DNA from: Chlamydiota bacterium
Lineage (GTDB): Bacteria; Auribacterota; Tritonobacteria; UBA1439
Assembly (NCBI GenBank): GCA_012729785.1
Contig: JAAYCL010000036.1
Location: forward strand, 62,001-126,000
DNA: 64,000 nucleotides
Reading direction: 5' to 3'
In this document: positions 44,564-54,070 of the stretch, piece by piece
Layout: each line of letters opens with the position of its first letter
Numbering within the stretch: the stretch's first letter is position 1
Made by a program: the position numbers and the translations under genes
The notes under the pieces: generated by a model
Told to the model about the DNA's origin: nothing
The model's input: the letters and a program-made list of their open reading frames with translations, nothing else
The model's database searches: none

Positions 44564-45367
44564 ATGCATATGTCGGCGCGTGTGGCGGCGTTGCTGCTCG
44601 CGACCTCGGCCGCCGTCGGCCTCGGGGCCGAGGAGTCGCCGCGCCCGGCCGCCCCGTCCGCCGCCCCCCGGCGGCTCAGCCCCGCGGACGCGGAGTTCTG
44701 GCGGGAGCTCGCCCCGCGGCCGGCCGACCTCTGGGGGGAGACCACGGAGACGTTCAGGGGCTGGAACCTCGCCGCGGTCGCCGCGACCGCGGGGCTCGCG
44801 GGGGGGCTCGCCTTCCTCGACGCCGACATGCAGAAACCGTGGCGCGACGGCGACAGGCTGATCGGCGCCGACCTCTGCGACGTCGGCGACCTGGTCGGGC
44901 ACCCGGGGGTCCAGGCCGGCGTGATGGGCCTCACCTACACGCTCGGCCAGGCGCTCGGCGACGAGACGCTCGCCAAAACCGGGAAGTCGATGGCGGAGAC
45001 GATGATCTTCACCTCCCTCGCCACGGTCGCCCTCAAGGGGATCTTCAACCGCGAACGGCCCGACGGCGACGACCATATGTCGTTCCCCTCGTGGCACGCC
45101 TCCGCGACCTTCGGGAACGCCACCGTCCTCGCGGAGTACTACGGGTGGAAGGCGGCGGTCCCGGCGTACCTCGTCTCGGCGTTCGTCGCCTGGAGCCGGG
45201 TCGAGGACAACAAGCATTTCGTGAGCGACGTGGTGGCGGGCGCCGCCGTGGGCTGCATCTTCGGGCACGCGGTGTCGCGCTACAACCTCAGGGTCCATCC
45301 GGCCGTCTCGATCGAACCGGTGCTGCTGGATGAGGGGGCCGGCGTCCAGGCCCGCGCGCGGTTCTGA
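44564..45367 (+). CDS. PAP2-family phosphatase
   Basis: Predicted 267 residues with a signal peptide (cleavage near residue 22). The three acid-phosphatase motifs are present: KGIFNRERP (K-x6-RP), FPSWHASATF (normally PSGH, here PSWH with the catalytic His kept) and SRVEDNKHFVSDV (SR-x5-H-x3-D). Few long hydrophobic helices are seen, so it may be periplasmic or peripheral rather than a six-helix undecaprenyl-PP phosphatase. The substrate may be a lipid or polyprenyl phosphate. GGAGGGG precedes ATG 44564. It follows the sigma-54 regulator by 20 nt. Confidence 0.85.
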   Translation: MHMSARVAALLLATSAAVGLGAEESPRPAAPSAAPRRLSPADAEFWRELAPRPADLWGETTETFRGWNLAAVAATAGLAGGLAFLDADMQKPWRDGDRLIGADLCDVGDLVGHPGVQAGVMGLTYTLGQALGDETLAKTGKSMAETMIFTSLATVALKGIFNRERPDGDDHMSFPSWHASATFGNATVLAEYYGWKAAVPAYLVSAFVAWSRVEDNKHFVSDVVAGAAVGCIFGHAVSRYNLRVHPAVSIEPVLLDEGAGVQARARF

Positions 45368-45417
45368 CCTTCCGCGGCCGTTTCGCCGTTTGGAGGGTCG
45401 CTCGCACGGAGAGCGGC

Positions 45418-47529
45418 ATGAACGGAGCATCGAGGCGGATCGCCTTTCTGGCCGCCGCGGGCATCTGCCTGCGCGCGACGGCGGCCTCCGCCTACATCGG
45501 GCCGGGCGCGGGGTTCGCCTTCCTCGGCTCGTTCGTCTTCATACTGGGGGGGATGCTCCTGGCGGTGGTCGCGCTGCTCACCCTCCCCGCGCGCATCCTC
45601 CTGGCGCGCCTGCGCGGCAGGAAGGCGTTCCGGAGGGCCGCGGCGGAGCGGGTCGTCATCGTCGGCCTCGACGGCCTCGACCCCGCCCTCGCGTCGGGGT
45701 GGATGCGGGAGGGGAAGCTGCCGAATCTCTCCGCCCTCGCCGCCGAGGGGTGCTTCTCCCCGCTGGCGACCTCGAATCCCCCGATCTCCCCGGTGGCGTG
45801 GTCGTCGTTCATCACCGGCTCGAACCCGGGCAAGCACAACGTATTCGATTTCCTGATGCCCGACCGGCGGAACTGCCTCCCCGCCCTCTCCTCCGCCTCG
45901 ATCGAACCCACGCGGAGGACGCTGCGCCTCGGGCGGCTGCGGGTCCCCCTCGGGAAGCCGACCATCCGGCTCCTCCGGAAAGGGGTCCCGTTCTGGAGGA
46001 TACTCGGGGAGCACGGGATCCGCAGCGTCGTGCTCAAGGTGCCGATCACCTTCCCCCCGGAGAGATTCCGCGGCATGCTCCTCTCCGGCCTCTGCGCGCC
46101 TGATCTCAAGGGCTCCCAGGGGACATTCGCCTTCTACACCACGGCCGACCCTCCCGCCGGCTCCGTCACCGGGGGCTGCCGCGTGCGCCTGGAGGGGGAC
46201 GGTCCGGTGTTCGAGACGCGCATCTCCGGTCCCCGCGACCCGTACGGGAGGGGGTTCGATTTGTCGATCCCGATGCGGATCGAGGTCGATGCGGCGCGGG
46301 GGCTCGCCCGCCTGCGGATAGCCGGACGCTCGCACACGGTGCGGGCGGGGACGCTCTCGGACTGGATCCCTCTCGTCTTCCGCGCCCCGCTCGGCACGCG
46401 GGTCCGCGGCATCGCGCAGTTCTTCCTGAAACAGGTTGCCCCGCGCGTGGAGCTCTACCTCTCCCCCGTCAACATCGACCCCGAGAACCCGGCCCTCCCG
46501 GTGTCGCACCCGCGCGTCTACGCCTCGTACCTGGCCAAGGTCGTCGGCCCGTTCGCCACGCTGGGGCTCCCGCAGGACACCTGGGCGCTGAACGAGGGGA
46601 TCCTCACCGACGATGCGTTCCTCCAGCAGGCGTACCGGATCCACGACAGGCTCGAAGAGATCTTCTTCCACTCCCTGAAGAGGATGCGGAGAGGGATGCT
46701 CTGCTGCGTCTTCGACACCACCGACGCCGTCCAGCACGAGTTCTGGCGCTACATGGCCGACGGCCACCCGGCGCTGAAGGGAGGGGAGCCCCCCCCCGGC
46801 CCCCCGGTGATCGAACAACTGTACCGGAGGATGGACGGCCTGATCGGGAGGGTGCGGGCGGCGCTGGGGCCGGATGACGTGTTGATGGTCGTCTCCGACC
46901 ACGGCTTCACGCTGTTCAAACGCTGCGTGAACCTGAACCGGTGGCTGTTCGAGAACGGCTACCTCGCCCTCAAGGACGGCGCCTCGTCGTGCGGGGACTG
47001 GTTCGAGGGGGTCGACTGGGAGCGGACGAGGGCGTACGGGTTCGGCCTTTCGGGGCTCTACCTCAACCTGAAGGGGCGGGAGAGCCGGGGCACGGTGACG
47101 CCGTCGGAGGCGGGGGCGCTGAAGCGGGAGATCGCGGGGAGGCTCGCGGGGCTCAGGGACGTCGCGGGGGGCGCGGAGGCGGTCGCAGCGGTGTACGATA
47201 CCGCCGCCGTCTACGCCGGCCCCTACGTCGAGAACGCCCCGGACCTCGTGGTGGGGTACGCGCCGGGGTTCCGCTGCTCGTGGGAATCGGTCACCGGCAG
47301 GGTCGGCGCGCAGGTCTTCTCGGACAACGACAAGGCGTGGAGCGCCGACCATTGCATCGACCACCGGTTCGTGCCGGGGGTCTTCTTCTGCAGCCGGCCG
47401 GCGGCGGCGGAGGCACCGCGCATCGTGGACATCGGCCCGACCGTGCTCGACCTGTTCGGCGTCGCGCCCCCCGCGCACATGGACGGCCGGCCGCTCGGCG
47501 TGGCGGGGAAAGGGATGCGGAACGGATGA
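45418..47529 (+). CDS. membrane-anchored alkaline-phosphatase-superfamily phosphodiesterase-like protein
   Basis: Predicted 703 residues. An N-terminal signal-like segment is followed by a Gly-rich loop and a transmembrane helix (about 31-62). The catalytic domain starts at VVIVGLDGLDP (metal Asp85) and has SPVAWSSFITG, where Ser124 aligns with the nucleophile of NPP-type enzymes; VVSDHGF and SADHC add metal ligands. Whether this domain faces the cytoplasm or periplasm is not certain. The family covers phosphodiesterases, sulfatases and phospho-transferases, so the substrate is open. It overlaps the next paralogue by ATGA. Confidence 0.82.
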   Translation: MNGASRRIAFLAAAGICLRATAASAYIGPGAGFAFLGSFVFILGGMLLAVVALLTLPARILLARLRGRKAFRRAAAERVVIVGLDGLDPALASGWMREGKLPNLSALAAEGCFSPLATSNPPISPVAWSSFITGSNPGKHNVFDFLMPDRRNCLPALSSASIEPTRRTLRLGRLRVPLGKPTIRLLRKGVPFWRILGEHGIRSVVLKVPITFPPERFRGMLLSGLCAPDLKGSQGTFAFYTTADPPAGSVTGGCRVRLEGDGPVFETRISGPRDPYGRGFDLSIPMRIEVDAARGLARLRIAGRSHTVRAGTLSDWIPLVFRAPLGTRVRGIAQFFLKQVAPRVELYLSPVNIDPENPALPVSHPRVYASYLAKVVGPFATLGLPQDTWALNEGILTDDAFLQQAYRIHDRLEEIFFHSLKRMRRGMLCCVFDTTDAVQHEFWRYMADGHPALKGGEPPPGPPVIEQLYRRMDGLIGRVRAALGPDDVLMVVSDHGFTLFKRCVNLNRWLFENGYLALKDGASSCGDWFEGVDWERTRAYGFGLSGLYLNLKGRESRGTVTPSEAGALKREIAGRLAGLRDVAGGAEAVAAVYDTAAVYAGPYVENAPDLVVGYAPGFRCSWESVTGRVGAQVFSDNDKAWSADHCIDHRFVPGVFFCSRPAAAEAPRIVDIGPTVLDLFGVAPPAHMDGRPLGVAGKGMRNG

Positions 47530-49493
47530 ACAGACGGAGAACGGCGACGGCGGCGGTGGCCGCGGCGCTCGTCTGCGCGTGCCTCCTCCCGGGCTGCGCG
47601 CCGCGGGATCGCTCCGGCGGGAAGCGGGTCGTCGTCCTCGCCTTCGACGGGATGGACCCCCGGATCGTGCGCGAGATGTTCGCCAAAGGCGGGCTGCCGA
47701 ACATGAAAAGACTGTCGGAGACCGGCGGCTTCACCGAGCTCTGGTCGAGCGTCCCGCCGCAGAGCCCGGTCGCCTGGTCCAATTTCATCACCGGCAAGAA
47801 CCCCGGGGGGCACGCCATCTTCGACTTCATCCACCGGGATCCCGCCACCTACCTGCCGTTCCTCTCCACCTCGGAGACGATCCCCCCGCGCCGCACGCTC
47901 GCCCTCGGCGACTACATCCTGCCCCTCTCCGCAGGGACCGTGCTCCTCAAGCGCGAGGGGAAGGCGTTCTGGGAGTACCTCGAGGAGGGCGGGATACCGG
48001 CGACGATCTTCAGGATCCCCTCCAACTTCCCCCCCGTCCCGGGCCGCGCGCAAAGCCTCTCCGGGATGGGAACGCCGGACCTGATGGGCACCTACGGGAT
48101 CTACCAGTTCTTCACGAGCGACCCCGCCGACATCCCGAAGGACCCCTCGGGCGCCGAGTTCACGCTGGTCGAGCCCCGGGACGGCGCCGTGCGGGCGGAG
48201 ATCGCGGGCCCCGCGAACTCCTACCGCAAGGAGGCGCCGCGGCTCTCCATCGCCTTCACCGCCTGGATCGACGAGGCGCACGGCGCCGCCAGGATCGATC
48301 TGCCCGGCGAAAGCCTGATCCTGCGGCAGGGGGAGTGGAGCGACTGGCTGGTCCTCGAGTTCAAGCCCCTCGCGCTGGCCCCGGCGGTGCGGGGGATCTG
48401 CCGCCTGTACCTGAAGGAGGTCCGGCCCCGATTCAGACTGTACGTCACTCCGATCAACATCGACCCGAAGGCCCCCGCACTCCCGATCGACACCCCCCGC
48501 GGCTACGCCGCCGGGGTGGCGGAGGCGGTCGGCTATTTCTACACGCAGGGGATGCCGGAGAACACGAAGACGCTCACCAACGACACCTTCACCATCGACG
48601 AGTTTTACACGCACTTCCGGATGGTTCTGGACGAGAACCACCGCCTCTTCGACCATATCTGGGAACGGTACCGCGACGGCCTCCTCTTCTACTACTACTC
48701 GAGCACCGACCTCGGCACGCACATCTTCTGGCACCTCCGCGACCCGAAGCATCCGATCCACAACGCGCAGGCGCGCGCGCGCCTCGGCGACGTGATCGAG
48801 GAGACCTACGCGGAGATGGACGGGGTGGTCGGGAAGGTGATGGCCGAGATCGGCGACGGCGCCACGCTCATCGTGATGTCGGACCACGGCTTCGCGCCGT
48901 TCTACGTCTCGTTCAATCTGAACGGCTGGCTGCGGGAGAACGGCTACCTGGTCCTGAGGGACGGGGCGGCGGAGGGGTCGCTCTTCACGAACGTGGACTG
49001 GCGGAAGACGCGCGCCTACGCCATCGGCCTGAACTCCCTCTACCTGAACCTGGCGGGGAGGGAGCGGGACGGGATCGTCGATCCGGGGGCGGAGCGGGAC
49101 GCGCTCCTGCGGGAGCTCGCCGCGAAGCTGGAGGCGGTGCGGGACCCGGGGAACGGCTCGGCCGTGATCAAGCGGGTCTACCGCGCGGACGAGGTCTACT
49201 CGGGCGAGTATGCGGGGCGGGCCCCCGACCTTGTGGTCGGCTACGACTGGGGGTACCGGACCTCGTGGGAGAGCGCCCTGGGCGACGTGAAGGGGACGCT
49301 CCTCGCCACGAGCACCGAGGAGTGGAGCGGCGACCATTGCGGCGCGATGGAGGTCGTGCCGGGCATCCTCTTCTCGAACAAGAGGATCGCCCTCACGGAT
49401 CCGCACCTCTACGATCTGACGCCGTCCATCCTCGCGGAGTTCGGGCTCCCGAAGCCCGCGGATATGATCGGCCGCAACGTCTTCGAACAGTGA
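47526..49493 (+). CDS. alkaline-phosphatase-superfamily lipoprotein, paralogue of the preceding gene
   Basis: Predicted 655 residues. The N-terminus is a lipoprotein signal with lipobox LLPGC, so the mature protein is attached to a membrane by a lipidated Cys near residue 23. The catalytic domain repeats the plan of its neighbour: LAFDGMDP, SPVAWSNFITG with the candidate nucleophile Ser, MSDHGF and SGDHC. A middle insert with beta character (about residues 200-330) includes YVTPINIDPKAPALPI, close to YLSPVNIDPENPALPV in the preceding protein, so the two arose by tandem duplication. Substrate unknown: phosphodiester or sulfate ester. Confidence 0.83.
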   Translation: MNRRRTATAAVAAALVCACLLPGCAPRDRSGGKRVVVLAFDGMDPRIVREMFAKGGLPNMKRLSETGGFTELWSSVPPQSPVAWSNFITGKNPGGHAIFDFIHRDPATYLPFLSTSETIPPRRTLALGDYILPLSAGTVLLKREGKAFWEYLEEGGIPATIFRIPSNFPPVPGRAQSLSGMGTPDLMGTYGIYQFFTSDPADIPKDPSGAEFTLVEPRDGAVRAEIAGPANSYRKEAPRLSIAFTAWIDEAHGAARIDLPGESLILRQGEWSDWLVLEFKPLALAPAVRGICRLYLKEVRPRFRLYVTPINIDPKAPALPIDTPRGYAAGVAEAVGYFYTQGMPENTKTLTNDTFTIDEFYTHFRMVLDENHRLFDHIWERYRDGLLFYYYSSTDLGTHIFWHLRDPKHPIHNAQARARLGDVIEETYAEMDGVVGKVMAEIGDGATLIVMSDHGFAPFYVSFNLNGWLRENGYLVLRDGAAEGSLFTNVDWRKTRAYAIGLNSLYLNLAGRERDGIVDPGAERDALLRELAAKLEAVRDPGNGSAVIKRVYRADEVYSGEYAGRAPDLVVGYDWGYRTSWESALGDVKGTLLATSTEEWSGDHCGAMEVVPGILFSNKRIALTDPHLYDLTPSILAEFGLPKPADMIGRNVFEQ

Positions 49494-49623
49494 GGGGTCG
49501 ATCGGCGCCGCCGGGGGACGCAACGCGGCTCCTAGACGGAGGCGGAGCGTCGCGACGGACGCGGGCGACGGGGACAGACGAAACGATCCGCGAAGATCCG
49601 CGGCACGAGCAGGGGAGGCGCAG

Positions 49624-49815
49624 ATGGCCAGGAAGGTGAGGATCGAGGAGGGGCTGTACGGGAAGATCGAGAAGGCCGCGGCCGCGGCGGGCTATCCGAA
49701 CGTCGATGAGTTCGTGGTCCATCTTCTCGAGAAGGCCGTCGCCGGAGTCGGCGGCGGAGACGACGACGCGGAACGGGTGAAGGAGCGGCTCAGGGGGCTC
49801 GGGTACCTCTCATGA
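49624..49815 (+). CDS. 63-residue protein, possibly ribbon-helix-helix-like
   Basis: The protein starts MARKVRIEEGLYGKIEKAAAAAG, then YPNVDEFVVHLLEKAV, the strand-helix-helix outline of small ribbon-helix-helix proteins. A Gly/Asp linker leads to a C-terminal VKERLRGLGYLS. That tail resembles the KLRALGYM end of CysD encoded 1.7 kb downstream, and a similar LxxLGY ending is seen in some sulfatase-like proteins. DNA binding is possible but unproven; an adaptor role is an alternative. GGAGG precedes the ATG and the stop overlaps the next gene by ATGA, so it is translationally coupled to the membrane protein. Confidence 0.75.
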   Translation: MARKVRIEEGLYGKIEKAAAAAGYPNVDEFVVHLLEKAVAGVGGGDDDAERVKERLRGLGYLS

Positions 49816-50627
49816 TCAGTGCCGCGGGACAGGCGCTGACGCGCCTCTTCGATCTGATTCTCCTCCCGGCGAGGGGCGCCGCGCCGGTCTGGGGGATCGC
49901 CCTCGCCGCCCTCCTGACGGCCGCGGGCGTCCTCATCTCCTACCGGCTCGTCTCCGACCAGGATGCGATACGCCGCCTCAAGAAGCGCGTCCAGGGGCAC
50001 CTCCTCGGCATCTACCTGTACCGGGACGACCCGCGCGCGATGCTCGGCTCCCTCGGCCGGGTCTGGTCAAACTCCATGCGGTACCTGGCATATTCCCTCG
50101 TCCCGTTCGCGGTCGCGTTCGTCCCCGTGGCGCTCGTCTGCCTGCAGCTCGATCTCCGCTACGCGCACCGTCCGCTTCGCCCGGGTGAACGCATGACCGT
50201 CTCCGTCGAGCTCGACCCAAGCGCCCCGCCCCCCGCGCTCTCCTCCACCGGCGGATTGCAGATCGAGACGGCGCCCCTGGCGATCGGCGGCACCGGGGAG
50301 ACGAACTGGAGGGTGCGCGCGGTCGCGCAGGGCGCGCAGGCGGTCACGGTCGCCGTCGGCGAGGAGACGCTCGCCCTCCCCGTCGCGGTCGGCGGGGCGG
50401 CGCGGCCGCTCTGCCGCCGGCGGCTTCGGTCCCCCGTGCGGCAGGGGCTTCTCTGCCCCGCGGGCGATCCGATACCCCGCGGGAGCGCGGTGCGGGCGGT
50501 GCGGGTCTCCTACCCCCCCGAGCGGGTCCGCCTGGCGGGGATGCGCCTGCACTGGAGCGCCTCCTTTTTCGTGCTCGCCCTCGCCTTCGGCCTGCTTCTG
50601 AAAAGGCCGTTCGGAGTTGATTTCTGA
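49812..50627 (+). CDS. three-helix membrane protein with periplasmic beta domain, Oxa1/EMC3-like outline
   Basis: Predicted 271 residues, not recognised with confidence. Hydrophobic helix 1 (about 24-46), a charged helical cytoplasmic loop (DQDAIRRLKKRVQG to SLGRVWSNSM), helix 2 (about 93-115), a beta-rich extracytoplasmic region (about 118-240) and helix 3 near the C-terminus. Helix, cytoplasmic helical hairpin, helix, late helix is the plan of the EMC3/TMCO1/DUF106 branch of the Oxa1 insertase superfamily; the sequence between helices 1 and 2 resembles it. This is a structural guess. It follows the 63-residue gene and precedes cysD. Confidence 0.7.
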   Translation: MISAAGQALTRLFDLILLPARGAAPVWGIALAALLTAAGVLISYRLVSDQDAIRRLKKRVQGHLLGIYLYRDDPRAMLGSLGRVWSNSMRYLAYSLVPFAVAFVPVALVCLQLDLRYAHRPLRPGERMTVSVELDPSAPPPALSSTGGLQIETAPLAIGGTGETNWRVRAVAQGAQAVTVAVGEETLALPVAVGGAARPLCRRRLRSPVRQGLLCPAGDPIPRGSAVRAVRVSYPPERVRLAGMRLHWSASFFVLALAFGLLLKRPFGVDF

Positions 50628-50645
50628 CCTCGGGGCGGCTATACT
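50617..50645 (+). promoter_or_regulatory. promoter for cysD-cysN
   Basis: TTGATT (50617-50622), a 17-nt spacer and TATACT (50640-50645). It overlaps the last codons of the upstream membrane-protein gene. Transcription would start near 50652, 36 nt before the TTG start of cysD. This indicates that cysDN can be expressed apart from the upstream phosphatase genes. Confidence 0.6.
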
Positions 50646-50687
50646 GTCGCTCTCCAAACAGTGCGCCCGGCAACAAAAGGACGACCA

Positions 50688-51491
50688 TTGGACCACCTCT
50701 CTGAACTCGAGCACAAGACGATCTATGTCGTGCGGGAGGCGTACAGCCGCTTCCGCAACATCGGGATGCTCTGGTCGATCGGCAAGGACTCGACCTCGCT
50801 CCTCTGGATCTGCCGCAAGGCGTTCTTCGGGAAGGTCCCGTTCCCGGTCATCCACATCGACACCGGCCACAAGTTCAAGGAGATCTACGCATTCCGGGAC
50901 CGCTACGCGAAGGAGTGGGGGCTCGACCTGCGGGTCGCGAAAAACGACGCGGCGCTCGCCGCCGGGATGGGGCCCGACAAGGGGGCGAAGCTCGACTGCT
51001 GCCATGCCCTCAAGACGCAGGCCCTGAAGGAGTTCATCGCCCGCGAGAAGCTCGACGCCATCCTCCTCGGCATCCGCCGCGACGAGCACGGCATCCGGGC
51101 CAAGGAGCGCTACTTCTCGCCGCGCGACGAGAAGTTCGAGTGGGACTACCAGAACCAGCCCCCCGAGCTCTGGGACCAGTTCAAGTCCAGCAGCGAGGGG
51201 CACCACCACCTCCGCGTGCATCCGATCCTCCACATGACCGAGACCGACATCTGGCGTTACGTTCGGCGGGAGGGGATGCCGGTGGTCGACCTGTATTTCG
51301 CCAAGGGGGGGAGGCGCTACCGCTCGATCGGCTGCGCCTGCTGCTGCGCGACCGTGGAGTCGGACGCGGAGACCGTCGACGCCGTCATCCGCGAGATAGA
51401 GACGACGAACGTCTCCGAGCGTTCGGGGCGGGCGCAGGACAAGGAAGACGCGTACACGATGCAGAAGCTGCGGGCGCTCGGCTACATGTGA
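50688..51491 (+). CDS. cysD: sulfate adenylyltransferase subunit 2 (PP-loop ATPase)
   Basis: Predicted 267 residues. The TTG at 50688 is chosen: AAAGGA lies 5 nt upstream and the product begins [18 protein letters not shown], as CysD proteins do. The PP-loop is [11 protein letters not shown], followed by [35 protein letters not shown] is also CysD-like. A Cys-rich GCACCCAT segment near the C-terminus is unusual. With CysN it makes adenylylsulfate (APS) from ATP and sulfate. No CysH or sulfite reductase is nearby, so assimilation is not the obvious purpose here. Confidence 0.9.
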
Positions 51492-51516
51492 ACGGCGGGC
51501 GGCGAAAGGGAGATCG

Positions 51517-52767
51517 ATGGCGCAGACACGCGGGCGCGAGAACATGAAGATCGTCATCGTGGGCCATATGGACCACGGCAAGTCCACCCTCATCGGGCGG
51601 CTCCTCTACGATACCCGTTCGCTCTCCCCCGACCGGATGGAGGTCATCCGGAAGACGTGCGAGGAGATGGGGAAGCCGGTCGAGTTCGCCTTCGTGATGG
51701 ACCACCTCCGCGAGGAGCGGGAGCGGGGGATGACGATCGACACCGCCCAGACCTTCTTCCACACCGCGCGCCGCGACTACGTGATCATCGACGCCCCCGG
51801 GCACAAGGAGTTCATGAAGAACATGATCACCGGGGCGAGCCAGGCCGAGACGTCCATCCTCATCGTGGATGTGCATGAAGGGGTGATGGAGCAGACGCGG
51901 CGGCACGCCTATGTGCTCGGGATGCTCAACCTGAGGAAGAACATCCTGGTCCTGAACAAGATGGACCTCGTCGGTTACGACAAGGCGGCGTTCGAGCGCG
52001 TGCGCGGCGAGATCGCCGCCTTCCTCAAACGTCTGGGGATCGCCCCCTCGTTCGTCATTCCGGTCTCGGGGACCGGCGGGGACAACTTCGCCTCCCCCTC
52101 CGGGAAGATGCCCTGGTACAAGGGGCCGACGCTCATCGACGCCCTCGACACCCTCGAAAAGGACCGGGACCTCAGGGAGAAGCCGCTCCGGATGCCCGTG
52201 CAGGACGTTTACGAGCGGGAGGCGGGGCGCATCGTCGCGGGCAGGATCGAATCCGGCTCGCTTCGCGAGGGGGACGCGGTGAGGATCTTCCCCGGGGAGG
52301 AGCGGGCGACCGTGGCGAAGGTTCTCGAGTTCGGCGCGACGCGCGCCTCCGCGGAGGCGGGGGAGTGCATCGGCGTGCTGCTCTCGGGGGGGGCGGCGCC
52401 GCGGCGCGGCGATCTCCTGGGAGCCCTCGGCGACCCCCCGCGCCTCGGTACGGCGGTCAGCGCGAACCTGTTCTGGATGGCCGCGGAGGCGTGCGCGGCA
52501 GGCGAGAGGCTCACGTTGCGCCTTGGAACGCAGGAGACGCCCTGCAGGATCGAAACGATCGGGAAGAGGATCGACTCCTCGACGCTCGACGTCATCGAGG
52601 AGAACGCCCGCGCGCTCGAAGAGACCGAGGTGGGCGAGGTCCTGGTCCGCACCGAACGCCCGGTCGCCTTCGAGCTCTTCAGCGACATCCCCGAATTGGG
52701 CCGTTTCGTCCTCGAGAGGGGGAACGACATCGTCGCCGGGGGGATCATCACCCGTCCCGGCCCCTGA
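51517..52767 (+). CDS. cysN: sulfate adenylyltransferase subunit 1 (GTPase)
   Basis: Predicted 416 residues, shorter than E. coli CysN (475). It is an EF-Tu-like GTPase: G1 GHMDHGKST, switch region [17 protein letters not shown]3 DAPGH, G4 NKMD, and two beta-barrel domains after about residue 215. GTP hydrolysis drives APS formation by CysD. There is no fused APS kinase (CysC) domain, and no kinase gene is in the window. It starts 25 nt after cysD and is followed after 16 nt by the third alkaline-phosphatase-superfamily gene. A different nucleotide-transfer reaction cannot be ruled out. Confidence 0.88.
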
Positions 52768-52783
52768 TCCAAAGGAGACCGGA

Positions 52784-54070
52784 ATGCCTCCCCGCCCGCG
52801 CGCGGTCATCGTCGGCCTCGACGGCGTACCCCACCGGCTCATCGAGCGGTACGCCTCCGACGGGACGATGCCGAACCTCGGGGCGATACTCGCGACCGGG
52901 ACGCTCCGGAGGATGGCCTCCTCCATCCCGGAGATCTCCTGTGTCGCCTGGAGCACGATCATCACCGGCAGGAACCCGGGCGTTCACGGCATCTACGGGT
53001 TCATGAACCTGCGGCCGGGCACCTACCAGTTCTCGTTTCCCGCGTTCGGAGACCTGAAGGCGCCTCCGTTCTGGGAGGAGATGCCGGACACGCGGGCCGC
53101 GATCGTCAACATCCCGGGCACCTATCCCGCGCGCACCATGAACGGGGTTACCGTGTCGGGTTTCGTAGCCCTCGACCTCGCGCGGGCGACATATCCGAAA
53201 CACCTCATCCCGGAGCTCGAGCGGCTCGGCTACCGGATCGACGTGGACGCGGCCAAGGGCCACTCCGACATCGACGCCTTCCTGCGCGACCTCGACGCGA
53301 CGCTCGAGGCGAGGATCCGGGCGGCCCGCTTCCTGCTCGCACGGGAGCGCTGGGATATCTTCTTCCTCGCCTTCACCGGGACCGACCGGCTCTCCCATTT
53401 CCTCTTCGAGGCGTTCGAGAACGACGCCCACCCCCGCGCCGGCGCCTTCCGGGCGCACTTCAAACGGATCGACGGCTATCTCGGCGAGCTGTACGAGACA
53501 GTCGGGGCCGACGATCTCCTTGTGCTGCTCTCCGACCACGGCTTCGACCTCGTCGAGACGGAGATCAACGTCAACAGGGCCCTCGCCGACGCCGGCTTTC
53601 TGAAGATCGCGAGCCCGACACGGGATTCGTTCGAAGGGGTGGGGGAGGGGAGCCGGGCGTTCGCCCTCGATCCCGCGCGGATTTATGTCAACCTCCGGGG
53701 GCGGTACCCGCGCGGATGCGTCGATCCCGGCGACCGGGAGCGCGTCGCCCGGGACGTCGCCGGCGCCCTCCAGGATCTCTCGGTGAACGGGAGGCCGGTG
53801 ATCCGCAGCGTCTTCTCGAGAGAGGAGCTCTATGCGGGGAGCCGGATCGCCGAGGCCCCCGATCTCGTGCTCCTGCCCCGGCGGGGGTTCGATCTGAAGG
53901 GGCGCCTCGCCGCACCGGCGCTGGTCTCCAGGGGCGTCTTCACCGGGATGCACACGCACGACGACGCGTTCCTCTTCGTGCGATCCTCGGCCATCCCGCC
54001 GTCGGAGATCCCCGCCGCGCCGTGGGTCGGGGATGTGCGCGCCCTCGTCGAGCGCGGGCTCGCCGGCTAG
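52784..54070 (+). CDS. soluble alkaline-phosphatase-superfamily protein
   Basis: Predicted 428 residues with no signal peptide or transmembrane helix, so probably cytoplasmic. VIVGLDGVPHRLIERY gives the first metal Asp. SCVAWSTIITG holds the Ser that aligns with the candidate nucleophile of the two paralogues upstream. LLSDHGFD and the late THDDAFL add metal ligands, and FTGTDRLSHFLFE is typical of type I phosphodiesterase/nucleotide pyrophosphatase relatives. It is likely transcribed with cysDN (AAAGGAGA ribosome site, 16-nt gap). It could act on APS, a nucleotide sugar or a sulfate or phosphate ester. Confidence 0.82.
   Translation: MPPRPRAVIVGLDGVPHRLIERYASDGTMPNLGAILATGTLRRMASSIPEISCVAWSTIITGRNPGVHGIYGFMNLRPGTYQFSFPAFGDLKAPPFWEEMPDTRAAIVNIPGTYPARTMNGVTVSGFVALDLARATYPKHLIPELERLGYRIDVDAAKGHSDIDAFLRDLDATLEARIRAARFLLARERWDIFFLAFTGTDRLSHFLFEAFENDAHPRAGAFRAHFKRIDGYLGELYETVGADDLLVLLSDHGFDLVETEINVNRALADAGFLKIASPTRDSFEGVGEGSRAFALDPARIYVNLRGRYPRGCVDPGDRERVARDVAGALQDLSVNGRPVIRSVFSREELYAGSRIAEAPDLVLLPRRGFDLKGRLAAPALVSRGVFTGMHTHDDAFLFVRSSAIPPSEIPAAPWVGDVRALVERGLAG

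Follow-up and report, generated by a model that had tools for sequence, protein, structure and literature searches.

Why would a bacterium encode the two subunits of ATP sulfurylase, CysD and CysN, amid three enzymes of the alkaline phosphatase (AlkP) superfamily? The question was raised by a locus within a stretch of 64,000 nucleotides from a Chlamydiota bacterium genome (contig JAAYCL010000036.1, positions 62,001 to 126,000), hereafter the window, to which the coordinates of the locus refer. To our knowledge, sulfation in bacteria is generally taken to depend on PAPS and on sulfotransferases of the PAPS fold. An operon in which three or four AlkP enzymes accompany an ATP sulfurylase, of one or the other of two unrelated kinds, would offer candidates for a second sulfotransfer chemistry, standing in genomes where the searched sulfotransferase models find nothing. 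Judged from sequence, this operon is found again in many bacteria that are not related to each other, and it resembles a so far undescribed machinery that sulfates molecules of the cell envelope.

Organization of the locus

Every gene listed in a preliminary description of this DNA was recovered on the forward strand, with the Pfam domains PF01569, PF01663 (three times) and PF01507. The genes AP1-AP2-P63-MEMB-CysD-CysN-AP3, from 45418 to 54070, are predicted to be one tight operon, with 4 bp overlaps between AP1 and AP2 and between P63 and MEMB, and with spacers of 25 bp between CysD and CysN and of 16 bp between CysN and AP3. PAP2 (44564-45367, +; PF01569) lies outside the conserved unit. It had been listed within the locus, and the sigma-54 two-component pair placed directly upstream, but both recur only in close relatives (L017 and L019), and roles for them gained no support. 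Distant loci lack PAP2, this histidine kinase/sigma-54 regulator pair and a sugar dehydrogenase, which were for that reason rejected as parts of the system, and the sigma-54 promoter consensus found no match within the window.

Sulfate activation in the absence of a reductive pathway

CysD (50661..51491, +), the ATP sulfurylase small subunit, reaches 341 bits against NF003587 (cut-off 195) and stays below the strict TIGR02039 model (252 versus 397 bits), as a member of a divergent, short CysD clade; a TTG start at 50688 is favoured by relatives over 50661. CysN (51517..52767, +), the GTPase subunit, scores 351 bits against TIGR02034 (cut-off 336) and is devoid of an APS-kinase domain. The lack of CysH, CysC and sulfite reductase genes, first remarked for the neighborhood, holds throughout the genome (2.59 Mb, 96.6% complete), where neither PF01583 nor PF01077 was detected and the sole PF01507 protein is this CysD, and the genome has no sulfate-reduction set. 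Sat and sulfotransferases of PF00685 and PF13469 were not detectable in it either. With no APS kinase, reductase or sulfotransferase found, no consumer of the APS made by CysDN can be named outside the operon. AprB (PF12139) gave no match in the genome, in a search that was likewise empty for the control genomes.

In the short CysD (50661-51491), two adjacent cysteines (CC) and a CxxC motif, also present in several of the phylum's ordinary CysD proteins (L013-L032), occupy positions at which, as we understand it, APS reductase has its [4Fe-4S] cysteines. CysD is a possible iron-sulfur subunit of ATP sulfurylase. A role as FeS-dependent APS reductase, to which these cysteines pointed, was rejected, since ordinary CysD proteins of the sampled genomes have them too and the scores place the protein with CysD rather than CysH.

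The AlkP-superfamily enzymes

AP1 (45418..47529, +; 703 aa), the first gene of the conserved AP1-AP2-P63-MEMB unit, encodes a membrane-anchored enzyme, AP2 (47526..49493, +; 655 aa) a lipoprotein with an NPP fold, and AP3 (52784..54070, +) a soluble enzyme. All three score above the cut-off of PF01663 with nucleophile and metal ligands present, and, as initially described, they have in common an S-(P/C)-V-A-W-S motif, the first serine of which aligns with the superfamily nucleophile (S124 in AP1, S80 in AP2 and S52 in AP3, by alignment). PF00884, the family of formylglycine arylsulfatases, found no match in AP1-3, where C/S-x-P-x-R is absent and S-(P/C)-V-A-W is present instead. Practically every orthologue of AP1 (n=36), AP2 (n=38) and AP3 (n=23) retains the serine and the six metal ligands, the exceptions being one AP1 with threonine for serine and one AP2 that is cut short.

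The AlphaFold model of AP2 (pLDDT 92.1) is closest to the NPP phosphodiesterases (VIA-align Z ~29, rmsd ~4 Å over ~340 residues), while the nearest solved sequence relative of AP3 is phosphonoacetate hydrolase. The NPP nucleotide pyrophosphatases/phosphodiesterases, in whose type of active site cleavage classically occurs at phosphorus, are like AP2 in fold and also in metal ligands. They differ in their nucleophile, a threonine that is not matched by the serine of AP1 (35/36), AP2 and AP3, placed in S-P-V-A-W; a large inserted beta region and the sulfate-activation operon further set the AP proteins apart.

AP1 shows a signal-like segment, then a transmembrane helix and then Arg-rich sequence, so that the catalytic domain may face the cytosol; AP2 possesses a lipobox (LPGC) and AP3 has no signal. 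The cellular locations of the three enzymes are predictions from their sequences.

Conservation and exchange of the ATP sulfurylase

The genome falls within the same phylum as Candidatus Tritonobacter lacicola, a species placed by NCBI in Candidatus Auribacterota, and record JAVCDC010000080.1 of that organism holds the same locus as contig C34 of genome G006. The full order AP1-AP2-P63-MEMB-CysD-CysN-AP3 is kept in G003, G004, G006 and G021; G011 has MEMB-CysD-CysN-AP3, and G013 and G031 harbor AP1-AP2-P63-MEMB and CysD-CysN-AP3 as separate halves. Among records with AP1 homologues the same order was found in Planctomycetota (JAEUIC), Myxococcota (JANQFK) and Acidobacteria (JAKEER, with a match that stops at P63). 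Of the 384 genomes sampled, 43 were positive with the MEMB profile, and AP1-AP2-P63 accompany MEMB in almost all of these. Gene order, which the preliminary description had considered might not be conserved in relatives, is in fact kept far beyond close ones, and its remark of knowing no described system with this composition agrees with the open-licence literature, in which the gene combination was not found. No acceptor gene recurs across the loci examined.

In several distant genomes CysDN gives way to another enzyme. In L067, L074, L077, L079, L082 and L086, Sat (PF01747), a further AlkP protein named AP4 and APS kinase (PF01583), assigned by clustering, profiles and Pfam, form the order Sat-AP4-CysC-AP3-AP1-AP2-P63-MEMB or one close to it, and other MEMB-positive genomes have a Sat-AP4-CysC(-AP3) module at a separate site. 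Since Sat and CysDN make one and the same product without being related, the fact that either can stand next to the same AlkP genes provides good evidence of a requirement for APS. This non-homologous replacement of CysDN by Sat and APS kinase links the AlkP proteins to sulfate activation and gives independent support for that reading. An ATP sulfurylase of either type was found in 36 of the 43 carriers. Outside the phylum, APS kinase was found in 29/33 MEMB-positive versus 99/307 MEMB-negative genomes (Fisher p 5e-10) and inside Auribacterota in 0/10 versus 23/34 (p 1.4e-4), p-values that overstate independence as the genomes are related. The latter contrast indicates that the missing APS kinase of the present genome is not just a matter of incompleteness. 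PF00685/PF13469 sulfotransferases were found neither in 9 of the 10 phylum carriers nor in 14 of the 33 carriers outside it.

Family f86, comprising the near-complete genomes G112, G253 and G382, departs from this pattern: G112 and G382 (~100% complete) have AP1-AP2-P63-MEMB, but Sat, CysD and APS kinase were not found in them, and G253 has a tailed APS kinase (see below) with no ATP sulfurylase found.

Individual loci display further peculiarities. CysC-like proteins of L093 (15941-16489) and L100 (10756-11175) have no P-loop and keep their tail, and the AP4 of L086 (1650-3035) has neither nucleophile nor metal ligands; such degenerate copies suggest structural roles or decay. A PHP-domain protein starts directly after MEMB in L083 (10348), L084, L085 and L102 (10475), from two genome families. 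Some members of the broad PHP-domain family are pAp phosphatases, and the protein may remove PAP, which we note as a lead only.

P63, MEMB and a shared C-terminal tail

Neither P63 nor MEMB matched a family among Pfam and curated models. P63 (49624..49815, +; 63 aa) is a small ribbon-helix-helix-like protein, with a weak similarity to RHH_1 (best E 0.0065, 2/8 members) and a C-terminal LxGLGY tail. MEMB (49812..50627, +; 271 aa), with three transmembrane helices and an Ig-like domain, represents a new family that marks the system. A single MEMB member gave E 0.021 against PF01956 of the EMC3/TMCO1-Oxa1 superfamily; a Foldseek comparison of the MEMB model (pLDDT 78) with the PDB returned Ig-domain matches only, and no Oxa1-type fold.

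The tail of P63 (DDDAERVKERLRGLGYLS; 49759..49812, +) also occurs on non-homologous proteins of the operon. The same acidic-amphipathic end, finishing LGY(I/L), is shared by P63, its paralogue P63b, encoded before Sat, and 18 operon-type APS kinases, in which it constitutes an extension past the normal C-terminus; AP3 or AP4 adjoins 17/18 of the tailed CysC genes versus 1/31 of the untailed. CysD terminates in KLRALGYM (LGY-type C-terminus at 51444..51488, +), which may be just a small shift because every aligned CysD ends GYF or GYM. We lean towards the tail being a putative docking motif, and found no description of it in the open-licence literature. Sulfated envelopes of uncultured bacteria could be sought with two as yet uncharacterised families of proteins and this short tail as markers.

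Searching the present genome with a DNA pattern for LGY-type ends returned P63, CysD, one sulfatase-like membrane protein and Era, the own C-terminus of which presumably looks similar. Carriers of the LGY end in G006 are mostly sulfatase-like proteins, the formylglycine motif being absent from the part read of those checked. They include four LGY-tailed sulfatase-like membrane proteins within 9 kb (L162-L165; G006:C108:58841-67321), again with no formylglycine motif in the part read, which are candidate relatives of AlkP-type sulfotransferases. In L148/L167 (G004:C45:14899-15779) a P63b-type protein lies beside an ATPase ending LRALGYIA, and a similar ATPase in L029 (1727-2545) ends LTALGYSA.

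Proposed mechanism and alternatives

The locus very probably exists to produce activated sulfate and to use it for purposes other than reduction. Our preferred explanation is that it represents the Auribacterota version of a widespread operon in which sulfate is activated for transfer by AlkP enzymes and not for reduction; we regard it as evenly balanced, and the same even chance is given to the AlkP members performing sulfo transfer. By sequence and gene order, CysD-CysN provide the ATP sulfurylase step in the present genome, while Sat and CysC occupy the corresponding neighborhood elsewhere. In the proposed mechanism, APS, or PAPS elsewhere, would be the donor. The AlkP enzymes, equipped with a serine nucleophile and two metal sites, would form a sulfo-enzyme intermediate and pass the sulfo group on to a lipid-linked or envelope glycan, the site of action being the cytosol for AP3, the membrane for AP1 and the periplasm for AP2, and MEMB serving as their partner in the membrane. 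P63 and P63b, along with the LGY tails of the enzymes that activate sulfate, would hold donor synthesis and transfer together. Since APS kinase is missing in all 10 phylum genomes with MEMB, APS itself may be the donor, although its use as direct donor in Auribacterota is a somewhat doubtful proposal. Of the envelope sulfation initially suggested, sulfate activation has been strengthened by gene order, the lack of a reductive set and the exchange for Sat, whereas the acceptor and the transfer step are conjectural; the nucleotide-modification alternative gained no support. The complete picture, of AlkP enzymes replacing the classical sulfotransferase fold across Bacteria, APS-direct in Auribacterota, assembled by LGY tails and with a haloarchaeal counterpart, is put forward tentatively and is rather unlikely.

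Against transfer it can be said that NPP-type sites could hydrolyse APS rather than transfer its sulfo group, and that AP2 is predicted to be periplasmic, where APS is not expected. The AlkP proteins might instead hydrolyse APS, PAPS or PAP, NPP-like, and so drive or control sulfation by an unrecognised sulfotransferase. The proximity of the AP2 model to NPPs, binders of AMP-type substrates, favors this, as do the four loci with a PHP-domain protein right after MEMB, where product removal may already be provided. We nevertheless consider hydrolysis unlikely, as nucleotide clean-up would not call for as many as three to four paralogues of AlkP, with one on either side of the membrane, and no sulfotransferase candidate recurs in the loci. 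Transfer is preferred on account of this number and placement of paralogues, the absence of detectable classical sulfotransferases and a demonstration in Halobacterium salinarum, described below.

Membership of PF01663, to which the GPI ethanolamine-phosphate transferases also belong, would equally fit phospho-transfer or phosphodiester enzymes of envelope assembly, with sulfate activation modifying the same polymer separately. The f86 core (G112, G253 and G382), in which no ATP sulfurylase was found, is in line with this and counts against the sulfation reading. This alternative is however improbable given that AP3 and AP4 have APS kinase or CysDN as neighbours more regularly than expected by chance, and that the activating enzymes bear the same tail. 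Finally, CysD-CysN could serve ordinary assimilatory sulfate reduction, with the AlkP genes as unrelated neighbours, and G003 and G031 of the phylum do have a CysH-type protein and sulfite reductase as well. The present genome, G004, G006, G011, G013 and G021 have no strong CysH-type match and no sulfite reductase, and the linkage persists when Sat takes the place of CysDN. An assimilatory role, highly improbable in general, is already contradicted for the present genome and was rejected there.

Comparison with known systems

Sulfate activation of the CysDN/NodPQ type serves sulfotransferases of the NodH type and thus resembles the operon in having ATP sulfurylase genes for transfer, not reduction. 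The present genome differs, with AlkP genes instead of an APS kinase and a PF00685/PF13469 sulfotransferase. In Halobacterium salinarum, VNG1056C (membrane) and VNG1057C (soluble), both with an AlkP-like core, sulfate the N-glycan, and they do so also when expressed in Haloferax (PMC11980604); their sulfate donor is not discussed (PMC11980604). The operon likewise comprises membrane-bound and soluble proteins with an AlkP-like core, a likeness by superfamily assignment. VNG1056C and VNG1057C are sulfatase-like and situated in the aglB glycosylation cluster, whereas AP1-3 are PF01663/NPP-like and lie beside ATP sulfurylase, an arrangement that suggests a donor for these recently reported archaeal AlkP-type sulfotransferases.

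More haloarchaeal and Desulfolutivibrio records with a CysD-like protein are mostly without AlkP neighbours, and the archaeal link therefore rests on Halopiger xanaduensis. The glycan locus of its plasmid pHALXA01 (L145; NC_015658.1 32818-57633) differs from the operon in being archaeal, with neither P63 nor MEMB among the annotations of this stretch. Within the one locus, a CysD-like PP-loop protein, two sulfatase-like proteins and one AlkP protein all carry LGY-type tails, and a PiT-type transporter lies next to them.
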